A stretch of DNA of 64,000 nt, taken from contig JAFVBG010000002.1 of NCBI GenBank assembly GCA_017480095.1, forward strand, positions 67,728 through 131,727. The letters run 5' to 3'. The stretch comes from Candidatus Saccharimonadota bacterium. GTDB lineage: Bacteria > Patescibacteriota > Saccharimonadia > Saccharimonadales > Saccharimonadaceae. Every line of letters starts with the position of its first letter. The stretch's first letter is position 1. Made by a program: the position numbers and the translations under genes. The notes beneath the pieces are model-generated. The model was not told the origin of the DNA, did no database searches, and saw only the letters and a program-made list of their open reading frames with translations. Shown here piece after piece: positions 7,633 to 13,298 of the stretch.

Positions 7633-8364
7633 TTATTCAGATTGCTTGAGAGTGTCAGATTTTTCCTCCGAAGAGGAATTATTTTGCAGTAACGGGTCGA
7701 TTTTCTCGGCAAAATTTTTCATAAAGGTTTCTTCGTCTTGATTTGGCGAAACTGACTCGCCGTTGATGTAAAAGGCTGGCGTGCCAGTAAGCTTGGTAAT
7801 CTGACCAGCGCCCATGTCGAAGGTGATTTTCTGAGAAACTTCTTTCGAGCGCATATCGGTCTTGAACTTATCAACATCACCTTTACCCTCGGTTACGTCA
7901 TTAAAATAGCTCACAAAGAGACCGAGGCGTTCGGAAGATTCGGCATAGTACCAATCGTTCTGGTTGGCAAAGAGCGTGTCAGCATATTCTCTCCAATATC
8001 CCTGGAGTGCGGCAGCATTCGCAGCGGAAGCAGCGGCAGTGGCATTGTTATGATAAGAAAGCAGGAAGGTGCGGAAGATCACTGCAACTTTGCCGTCGTA
8101 TTTCTCGACGAGCTTGTTGATGTATGGATTATAGAGAGCGCAATATTCACACTGATAGTCAGCATATTCGATAATCTTGACTGGGGCATTCCGATCGCCC
8201 TTGATGTTATCGTCGAAATTGCCAGTATCCGCCGTAGCAGAGACAAAATCGTTTAAATTATACTTACTGTAGTCGATTTGACTGGCGATTTTCATGACAA
8301 TCAGAGCCACAACTCCGCCGACCAAAATCAAAATTGCAATTATTTTCCCAATTTTCTGATTCAT
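7633..8364 (-). CDS. Membrane-anchored DsbA-like thioredoxin-fold oxidoreductase
   Basis: Residues 6-27 form a membrane anchor; the rest is a Thioredoxin_4/DsbA-like domain outside the membrane. The active-site motif is CEYC within YADYQCEYCALY, and TGTPAFYING carries the cis-proline. It is expected to form or rearrange disulfides in exported proteins. The C-terminus is Glu/Ser/Asn-rich. A TATAAT box lies 8 nt before ATG in the short region shared with the divergent CBS gene. It leads a likely operon with aspS, probably a coincidence of packing rather than function. Confidence 0.88.
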   Translation of the reverse strand: MNQKIGKIIAILILVGGVVALIVMKIASQIDYSKYNLNDFVSATADTGNFDDNIKGDRNAPVKIIEYADYQCEYCALYNPYINKLVEKYDGKVAVIFRTFLLSYHNNATAAASAANAAALQGYWREYADTLFANQNDWYYAESSERLGLFVSYFNDVTEGKGDVDKFKTDMRSKEVSQKITFDMGAGQITKLTGTPAFYINGESVSPNQDEETFMKNFAEKIDPLLQNNSSSEEKSDTLKQSE

Positions 8365-8406
8365 ATGGTATAATTATACTATAAAATAGTCAAATTGGGA
8401 AGTCGT

Positions 8407-9045
8407 ATGTCAAAGTTCCTTGAGAAATTTACAGGGTGGGTGGATCCAAAATTAGAAAAATATCGGGCGCCAAAACCGCTACCAAGTCCAGAGCCTTACC
8501 TGCCAAAAACGCTTGAGGATTTTATGTGGTTCTTGAAAAAGACTCCAGCCGAAGTCTTATCCCCGACCGATCGGGCGACGATTGCTTCGGCAATCTCTTT
8601 CCGCGAGCGCAAGGTGCGAAACGTAATGATTCCAAAAGACCAAGTCGTGTTCGTGCATGAACATGATTTCTTAGGGCCGCTGATGCTGGACAAGCTCTAT
8701 AAATCTGGACAGGCACATTTCCCTGTCTTATCCGCGGATGGACGGACAGTATCTGGGGTGATTCATACCGAAGCGCTTAACTCTCTGGAGACCGCCGCCA
8801 CCGACCGCGCGGCTAAATATGTTGATAAAAAGGTCACCTTCCTGCGCGATGATTATACATTGGAGCAGGCGATGGCAGCATTTCTGCGTACAAACTCATT
8901 CTTCTTTGTAGTGATTGATAAAACTGGGGCAATGGTGGGGCTTTTGACCTATAAATTGCTAGTGGAACATCTGCTAGGCTACCTACCGGATGACGGGTTT
9001 AATGACGATTCGTCGATTAGCGCCGTAATCAAACGTCAGTTTTAG
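8407..9045 (+). CDS. CBS-domain protein (CorC/HlyC-like, lacking membrane domain)
   Basis: Two CBS motifs span about residues 70-125 and 135-190 (RKVRNVMIPKDQVVFV opens the first, as in CorC/HlyC proteins; FFFVVIDKTGAMVGLLT closes the second). Such pairs usually bind adenine nucleotides and regulate transport or enzyme activity. The DUF21 membrane domain of CNNM/HlyC proteins is absent, and the N-terminal 60 residues are Pro-rich and soluble. ATG 8407 is preferred to the TTG at 8395 because GGGAAG precedes it. It ends one base from the convergent ruvB. Confidence 0.8.
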   Translation: MSKFLEKFTGWVDPKLEKYRAPKPLPSPEPYLPKTLEDFMWFLKKTPAEVLSPTDRATIASAISFRERKVRNVMIPKDQVVFVHEHDFLGPLMLDKLYKSGQAHFPVLSADGRTVSGVIHTEALNSLETAATDRAAKYVDKKVTFLRDDYTLEQAMAAFLRTNSFFFVVIDKTGAMVGLLTYKLLVEHLLGYLPDDGFNDDSSISAVIKRQF

Positions 9046-11162: not shown

Positions 11163-11249
11163 CCACGGGTCCTGCCGCTTTGTATCGCCCATCCGCTCGG
11201 CTCGCTAAACGCGACCGGGCGGCGGGGCCCCTCAAAGCGTCACCCGTGG
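11163..11249. repeat. Palindromic element, copy 1 (intergenic)
   Basis: A 79-bp core starts GGGTCCTGCC and ends GTCACCC, bounded by complementary arms CCAC/GTGG. Inner stems: GCTTTG/CAAAGC and CGCCC/GGGCG. It is nearly identical to the copy in ruvC. It lies between the pilin promoter and the ncRNA promoter; TTGACA of the latter begins inside or next to its right end. Confidence 0.85.
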
Positions 11250-11278
11250 TTGACAAAATTACAAAAGTGTGGTATAAT
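11250..11278 (+). promoter_or_regulatory. Strong promoter of the candidate ncRNA
   Basis: TTGACA, 17 nt, TATAAT, with AAGTGTGG before the -10 box. The predicted start is about 11284-11286. Confidence 0.85.
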
Positions 11279-11283
11279 GGAGA

Positions 11284-11654
11284 GGTGTATCGTTTATGCT
11301 TGCATTATTTTGAGCAATTTGATACAATAGGAAAGTCGTTCTTTTCCCTAGCGTCCAAAGACTTAAGTGACGTTCTTAGAGGTGGGTCGGTCGTGAACGA
11401 CACAATTAAACAGGAGTTCGTAAGAGAACATAATGCGTATCGGACTTAAGCGAGACTATTCTCGCAAAAAGTCGCAGATTCCTCCTGCCCCATGGCAAGA
11501 GTTCATTGAAACCAAGATTGCCTAGAACTGAATAAGTTCATCAGCCTGCACTCAAATCCAACCGAGGTTCGCTTCAGCCGGATAAGAGATGCAGAATGCA
11601 ATCGGAAGTTTCAATGGTAAAACGCGCAAAGACCCCCGTAAAGGGGGTCTTTTT
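11284..11654 (+). ncRNA. Candidate structured ncRNA of about 370 nt
   Basis: The interval has a consensus promoter, a terminator and no convincing gene. Many small hairpins run along it: TGTATC/GATACA with inner TGCTT/GAGCA, GCGTC/GACGT, GTCG/CGAC, GTTC/GAAC, GCGAG/CTCGC, GGCAA/TTGCC, GAAC/GTTC and CCGGAT/ATCGG. Two short frames exist: a leaderless GTG frame (11285-11449, 54 codons) and ATG 11433-11525 (30 codons). I tested it by eye against tmRNA, RNase P, 6S and SRP RNA and found no fit. It could instead be a short mRNA with a leader. Confidence 0.5.
11628..11654 (+). terminator. Terminator of the candidate ncRNA
   Basis: aaagaccccc pairs with gggggtcttt around gtaaa, followed by T residues. 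It may also act for ruvA in reverse. Confidence 0.88.
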
Positions 11655-12745: not shown

Positions 12746-13298
12746 AATGTGTGATAGCCGCAGCAAGAGCATCAGCAGCATCGTCTGGCTTTGGCACTTC
12801 TGCGAGCTTGAGATGCTGGCGCACCATCTCTTGCATCTGCGGCTTATCGGCACCGCCATAGCCAGTCATGGTCTGTTTGATTTCGTTTGGAGTGTATTCA
12901 AAAATCGGAAGGTTGCATTGACGAGCGACCAAGATGCAAACCCCGCGCGCCTCGGCAACGGATATTCCCGTGGTGATATTTTTACTGAAGAAAAGCTTCT
13001 CGATGCTGACACAATCGGGCTGATTTACCTCAATTATCTCATGGAGTGAATTATAAATATCGAGCAGACGTTCGGGTAGGGGCGTATGATGCGGTGTAGT
13101 GATGACGCCACAATCAAGCATACGGACGTTAATTCCCCGCCCAGTAGTCTCAATCACGCCAAAGCCGCAGATACCAGTGCCAGGGTCAATACCGAGGATG
13201 CGCGAGGGTCCTGCCGCTTTGTATCGCCCATCCACCCGGCTCGCTAAATGCGACCGGGCGGCGGGGCCCCTCAAAGCGTCACCCTCTCGCTTATTCAT
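12717..13298 (-). CDS. ruvC: Holliday junction resolvase RuvC with N-terminal insertion
   Basis: Cuts Holliday junctions symmetrically. Catalytic acidic residues are visible: D in RILGIDPGTG, E in VSIEKLFF, and DDAADALAAAITH near the C-terminus. ATG 13298 overlaps the radA stop (ATGAATAA), implying coupling. After MNKR come 29 codons derived from palindromic element copy 2, ending at RILGIDPGTG. Removing 87 bp restores MNKRILGIDPGTG, a normal RuvC start, so the element is an in-frame insertion. The active site begins only after the insert; whether the tail is tolerated is inferred from the otherwise intact frame. Confidence 0.94.
   Translation of the reverse strand: MNKREGDALRGPAARSHLASRVDGRYKAAGPSRILGIDPGTGICGFGVIETTGRGINVRMLDCGVITTPHHTPLPERLLDIYNSLHEIIEVNQPDCVSIEKLFFSKNITTGISVAEARGVCILVARQCNLPIFEYTPNEIKQTMTGYGGADKPQMQEMVRQHLKLAEVPKPDDAADALAAAITHSLMLKTLNV
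13202..13288. repeat. Palindromic element, copy 2 (inside ruvC)
   Basis: 79-bp core GGGTCCTGCC...GTCACCC plus 4-bp flanks gives 87 bp, i.e. 29 codons. It matches copy 1 except for a few bases; the inner stem reads CCCGG/CCGGG where copy 1 differs, and the stem survives. Coding-strand product includes DALRGPAARSHLASR. Confidence 0.88.

Follow-up and report, generated by a model that had tools for sequence, protein, structure and literature searches.

A conserved microprotein gene of about 30 codons with a structured 5′ leader in Saccharimonadales

In the 64,000-nt stretch of Saccharimonadaceae DNA that we analysed (the window), a 30-codon open reading frame lies on the forward strand at 11433–11525 (product MRIGLKRDYSRKKSQIPPAPWQEFIETKIA), with two promoters upstream and an intrinsic terminator downstream on the same strand. 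The distal promoter (11250–11278), TTGACA-N17-TATAAT with the TG of an extended −10 box, is a perfect sigma-70 match at 12 of 12 consensus bases, as the initial annotation of this interval had read it; no counterpart was noticed at the same place in the relatives that we read. The promoter common to the relatives is the proximal one (11300–11328), TTGCAT-N17-TACAAT with a TG-extended −10, which that annotation overlooked; most relatives have at this place a recurrent element of the form GCTTATGCTTGCAT...TTTG.TA..AT. A Shine-Dalgarno sequence, AGGAG (11412–11416), kept in nearly all relatives, precedes the ATG by 16 nt. In the fold, a small hairpin (GUUC-GUAAGA-GAAC; 11416–11429) occupies the space between it and the start codon, and two relatives, L005 and L007, have similar GUAC-N4-GUAC hairpins there.

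The terminator, AAAGACCCCC-GTAAA-GGGGGTCTTTTT at 11628–11654, bears out by sequence and fold the strong terminator claimed earlier; it is visible in the fold and absent from the listing of the terminator scan. Terminator-like sites were found 3′ of the ORF in 88 of 124 relatives, versus 4 of 124 in shuffles. The fold also pairs the end of the ORF (CATTGAAAC, 11504–11512) with the 3′ UTR (GTTTCAATG, 11608–11616) in a long hairpin spanning 11504–11616, whose closing arm is matched in relative L002 (CATCGAAAC/GTTTCGATG) and whose inner part shows no conservation. It had been claimed that the unit holds at least eight hairpins. The fold as a whole is indeed stable (z = −4.74), but with the terminator removed z is −2.33 and most of the hairpins are unremarkable by energy; the 5′ leader folded alone has no excess stability (z = +1.25).

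Just upstream of the distal promoter there is one copy (11171–11220) of a 50-nt GC-rich palindromic repeat (CCTGCCGCTTTGTATCGCCC...), the second copy of which, with three mismatches, is at 13210–13259 of the forward strand. The copies adjoin the promoters or starts of a pilin-like gene and of ruvC, and the start of the annotatable ruvC ORF extends into the repeat.

Rfam models were run on the window and ten relatives at gathering and at permissive thresholds, and returned only tRNAs and sub-threshold chance matches; the earlier statement, made by eye, that the unit does not fit tmRNA, RNase P, 6S or SRP RNA holds even at permissive thresholds. One sub-threshold match, PsrR1 in relative L013 (32.8 bits, under the gathering threshold of 42), overlaps the end of the ORF and the terminator. 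Neither the tmRNA nor the RNase P RNA model matched in the unit, and both RNAs were located elsewhere in the genome; RF00013 (6S) and RF00169 (small SRP RNA) did not match in the unit either. As a separate observation, these last two models found no match in the whole genome, which is 97.9% complete.

A nucleotide search of relatives yielded 22 homologous loci from the window's genus; every match had its centre at query positions 180–228, that is, on the ORF. Reading these loci, we found common to them a small frame with Shine-Dalgarno sequence and stop, on one strand. A profile of the 22 members was then run on 118 genomes of the genus and found exactly one copy in each of 108. The resulting genus set comprises 124 distinct ORFs of 26–39 codons (one of them, L122, from Candidatus Nanosyncoccus alces) with the shared pattern MRI..LKR..RKK....PAxWQEFIE. 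All 124 end in a motif of the W/G-x-E/Q-F/Y-I/L-E type, WQEFIE in 113, a count that is not independent evidence, since the ORFs were picked by a pattern including this C-terminal motif; none contains cysteine. The codon statistics and the genome search are independent of the motif.

When the relatives' loci are compared, the ORF is better conserved than any other part of the unit, and its conservation is of the protein type. The ratio pN/pS is 0.25 in frame against 1.43 and 1.80 in the shifted frames (1018 pairs from the 124 distinct loci; the pairs are not independent, but all three frames are contrasted on the same data). Substitutions at codon positions 1, 2 and 3 number 3907, 2877 and 9496, third positions being the most variable, and the window's copy shows the same codon pattern against its nearest relatives. 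The ORF therefore has a start, a Shine-Dalgarno sequence, a stop and, in this frame only, purifying selection on amino acids. The initial annotation had seen no good gene here and was mistaken; it had proposed an independent non-coding RNA and named codon-like change in a small frame as the result that would speak against it, and such change is what we found. At the level of RNA, a start-codon hairpin, GATAC-AUGC-GUAUC, forms with at least five pairs in 68 genus members (58 expected after re-pairing, with a maximum of 64 in 200), a result that is no more than suggestive.

The gene order around the microgene gave the means to follow it further. In most relatives it adjoins a gene for a DsbA-like membrane-anchored thioredoxin (Pfam Thioredoxin_4/DSBA), which is convergent and next downstream in 85 of 124 genus loci and is followed by a gene for a CBS-domain protein (Pfam CBS). 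The order of microgene, dsbA (reverse strand) and CBS gene (forward strand) also holds in most of 35 loci of other genera and families, so that dsbA and the CBS gene may be regarded as the ancestral first and second neighbours. In the window they are found at 7633–8364 (reverse strand) and 8395–9045 (forward strand), 2.4–3.8 kb upstream of the microgene; ruvB and other genes lie between, which indicates that the window's locus has been rearranged.

A profile of the genus form gave no match in any other genus of the phylum, but weak hits in two other genera adjoined the CBS-domain gene, the one found after dsbA in the window's genus. When the loci of the CBS gene were located and read in the family's other genera (families and orders are those of GTDB), small ORFs such as MPIAIEFVSSRRKKIAVDVVPAEWQLYIAQ with AGGAG came to light at the syntenic place. 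Restriction to a single genus, a reading that this syntenic search overturned, had reflected the sensitivity limit of the genus-only profile. The divergent form (MPIAIEFVSSRRKKIAVDVVPAEWQLYIAQ; MPVKIKVMNSRGTRVEVRVRRPSWQQFLQY) occurs in other genera and in more than 10 other families of the order, usually with exactly 30 residues; the ORF of one genus, g32, is more divergent still (MKKRSRKGALRVESFRWNDYIEM).

Of 392 genomes of the class, 154 had a match (E ≤ 0.05) to a profile of the divergent ORFs. Among the matches listed, nearly all family members from other genera had E-values from 1e-10 to 1e-22, and many other families of the order gave weaker, full-length matches. The proteins encoded by the outer-family loci are mostly exactly 30 residues long and align without gaps. 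An order-wide profile recovers these loci (families f18 and f19, for example, at E = 1e-14). Outside the order, it gave no convincing match among 380 genomes of the phylum; four weak ones (E 0.002–0.009) are about the number expected by chance. No relative was found in viral contigs, in a search that did not include the order-wide profile.

The genus and order forms differ in their N-terminal halves, but in profile–profile comparison the 15 C-terminal columns match with probability 93.8 and E = 1.8e-7. This match and the gene order together support a common origin of the two forms. The microprotein family is thus, as judged from sequence comparison, an old single-copy gene of Saccharimonadales, older than the genus. 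Several near-complete genomes of the genus keep the dsbA–CBS pair while the microprotein gene is apparently absent, which suggests that the protein is not strictly essential. In four genus genomes (L358–L361) dsbA and/or the CBS gene is kept, and no adjoining microprotein gene was found.

Searches by sequence and profile against Pfam, NCBIfam, PHROGs and PDB gave nothing convincing for the microprotein; matches to ghrelin, VP1 and the like had E-values of 0.1–0.3 and were put down to chance. In the open literature, as distinct from supplementary tables and small-protein catalogues, we found no description of it. No named family was found for the putative protein in these databases, and the leader element described below is absent from Rfam.

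The leader (11335–11401, forward strand), defined by a covariance model and by covariation, consists of a stem, P1 (11335–11341 with 11395–11401), and the motif GGUCG (11389–11393) beside its 3′ arm. In the window the model matches with 28.3 bits and E = 2.4e-4 (3.9e-4 for the whole genome). The arms GUCGCUC/GAGCGAU have many covariants, among them GUUGUUC/GAACAAC, GCACUCU/AGAGUGU and GUUGGUUC/GGACCAAC. In a model-fitted alignment of 62 sequences pairing in P1 reaches 92.5%, and its 24 compensatory cells exceed the count in each of 500 shuffles; in other genera, aligned without the model, it is 99.1% paired with 13 compensatory cells, again more than in all shuffles and far more than in slid controls. 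Shuffling the arms between loci lowers the stem score. MAFFT alone misaligned the 3′ arm because the spacer is variable, and the covariance model was built from constant-spacer leaders. An outer pairing, P2 (CCCA/UGGG), showed no compensatory changes and was dropped as a second helix.

Of 115 genus leaders, 102 carry GGUCG beside the 3′ arm, where about 6 would be expected; in the family's other genera it is present at 25 of 28 loci, mostly as UUUAAAGGUCGAA. Outside the family it occurs in none of 23 loci, where a stretch of the ACAAAAACA type is common instead. In these loci of other families of the order (L294–L320) an A-rich (g)agACAAAAACAnTaAAA stands upstream of the Shine-Dalgarno sequence in 15 of 23, in place of the GGUCG hairpin. 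The leaders also vary by insertion: L013, L050 and L052 carry an extra hairpin of 35–40 nt (ATCCCTATATGGGAC...CCATATAGGAT) between GGUGGG and GGUCG, and other genus members have different insertions at the same point.

The distance from the leader element to the Shine-Dalgarno sequence is most often 16–22 nt, and that from the −10 box to the ATG has a median of 89 nt (60–153) in 115 members. Eight genus members (L128, L146, L166, L167, L187, L196, L200 and L201) have a −10 box ending 6–9 nt before the ATG and no Shine-Dalgarno sequence left, with the ORF and its start kept; they appear to have lost the leader and retained the ORF. Together with the outer families, in whose genomes the leader model found no match, they imply that the leader is dispensable in places. 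Good matches to the model all lie upstream of the microgene, once per genome; two extra matches with E 0.04–0.05 are as many as chance gives. The leader is therefore an element that was added in cis, at the level of the family, to a gene shared at the level of the order. The proposal of an undescribed structured RNA accordingly survives in part: it is right for the first ~110 nt of the transcript, with a covarying stem, GGUCG and no Rfam family, and wrong for an independent RNA. As for the covarying stems that the initial annotation had suggested looking for in relatives, P1 has more compensatory changes than all 500 shuffles in two independent sets.

The unit is almost certainly a monocistronic mRNA that encodes a conserved microprotein of about 30 residues and has a structured 5′ leader and its own terminator. 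We hold the identity of gene and leader, leaving the mechanism aside, to be highly probable. The product can be predicted to be a small cytosolic protein that has no signal peptide, transmembrane segment or cysteine. The net charge of the genus form is about +4.6; its AlphaFold model is weak (mean pLDDT 70, pTM 0.22) and contains a C-terminal helix only. The strong promoters and the Shine-Dalgarno sequence suggest high expression, and the fixed distance from leader to Shine-Dalgarno sequence suggests translational control. Most likely, then, this would be a well expressed protein whose translation is under the control of the leader, and the leader hairpin probably controls its production. A riboswitch regulon, with the element before several pathway genes, was not seen, strong matches being upstream of the microgene only; absence of the element from other genes favours a gene-specific operator and disfavours a metabolite riboswitch regulon.

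A possible mechanism runs as follows. The gene would be transcribed from its strong promoters, and the RNA would carry the structured leader and stop at the gene's own terminator. The basic middle of the protein (SRRKK / RRxxK) could touch RNA or another acidic surface, and the short helix at the C-terminus, with WQ-x-[FY]-[IL] as its end, may dock on a conserved partner. The leader stem and GGUCG, some 18–21 nt ahead of the Shine-Dalgarno sequence, would act as a translational operator dedicated to the microgene, with feedback most simply by the protein itself, or by an RNA or ribosomal complex that the protein joins. This operator-plus-feedback scheme is a working proposal that we consider somewhat less probable than its negation. 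The basic middle and the conserved C-terminal aromatic helix would suit equally a peptide that docks on a partner and a protein associated with the ribosome or with RNA.

The second of these could take a specific form, a lineage-specific ribosomal or ribosome-associated protein whose autoregulatory leader mimics its rRNA site. The protein is tiny and, in most members, basic; its gene occurs once per genome nearly throughout the order, has a strong promoter, and has its own leader with a stem resembling a protein site and a conserved GGUCG. Against this, the gene is lost in some genomes, the MPIAI form is only weakly basic, and no ribosome structure in PDB containing the protein was found by sequence. 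Some known systems come close. The mRNA leaders of S15, L20 and S6:S18 are conserved structured 5′ UTRs, each of one gene or operon and near the Shine-Dalgarno sequence, and the proteins are small and often basic. The microgene leader is likewise conserved, structured, dedicated to one gene and close upstream of the Shine-Dalgarno sequence; unlike them, it matches no Rfam leader, and the product is not a known ribosomal protein. The mycobacterial proteins bS22 and bL37 are small extra ribosomal proteins of about 25–35 residues, lineage-restricted and basic. The microprotein resembles them in these respects, but no sequence match was found, and its pattern of two possible strands and a C-terminal Trp helix presumably differs from theirs. 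Saccharibacteria have reduced, unusual ribosomes (PMC12641178), which would suit this reading. On balance we regard it as a plausible minority possibility.

Rather unlikely is a dual-function RNA, in which the transcript makes the microprotein while its leader or 3′ UTR doubles as a trans-acting small RNA. The dedicated conserved leader, the strong promoter and the extended 3′ UTR hairpin of the window's form would agree with it, but a fixed short distance from leader to Shine-Dalgarno sequence is what a cis element would have, and the leader is missing from the outer families and the eight genus members.

More improbable still is the regulation of a neighbour, for instance the dsbA-like gene, by a leader or arrest peptide. 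Adjacency to dsbA is conserved across the order and some members have PP before the conserved W; however, dsbA is convergent on the opposite strand in most genomes, in the window the dsbA–CBS pair is kilobases away with other genes between, and the microgene's own terminator makes the usual attenuation of a downstream gene impossible. The independent structured non-coding RNA is the least credible reading: the strong promoter and terminator, the lack of an Rfam family and the covarying stem in the 5′ part speak for it, but conservation is highest in a reading frame whose substitutions are protein-like, ORF and start persist in the eight members lacking the leader, structure outside P1 is not conserved and the leader has no excess stability.

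We return to the microprotein mRNA with its proposed leader operator. Few Patescibacteria have been cultured, Saccharibacteria among them, and for many saccharibacterial genes no role is known; genetic tools exist for the cultured Saccharibacteria (PMC10633639). Microproteins encoded by bacterial small ORFs are collected in catalogues such as GMSC (PMC11364881). Like them, the present gene has 30 codons, occurs in single copy, is unannotated and carries a promoter and a Shine-Dalgarno sequence of its own; it is unlike them in order-wide conservation with fixed length and gene order, and it has no curated Pfam or NCBIfam family. The case shows that a tiny gene with a structured leader can pass for a non-coding RNA. 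A 30-residue protein kept across the order at fixed length and in a fixed gene order, and missing from the curated libraries, is a promising candidate for a function that defines the lineage, and its leader is an RNA element without an Rfam entry. One tentative idea, which we would not rate as probable, is that this order-wide protein may belong, so far unrecognised, to the unusual translation or RNA machinery of Saccharibacteria and that, in one family, it would control its own synthesis through a new operator (the stem plus AAAGGUCGAA).
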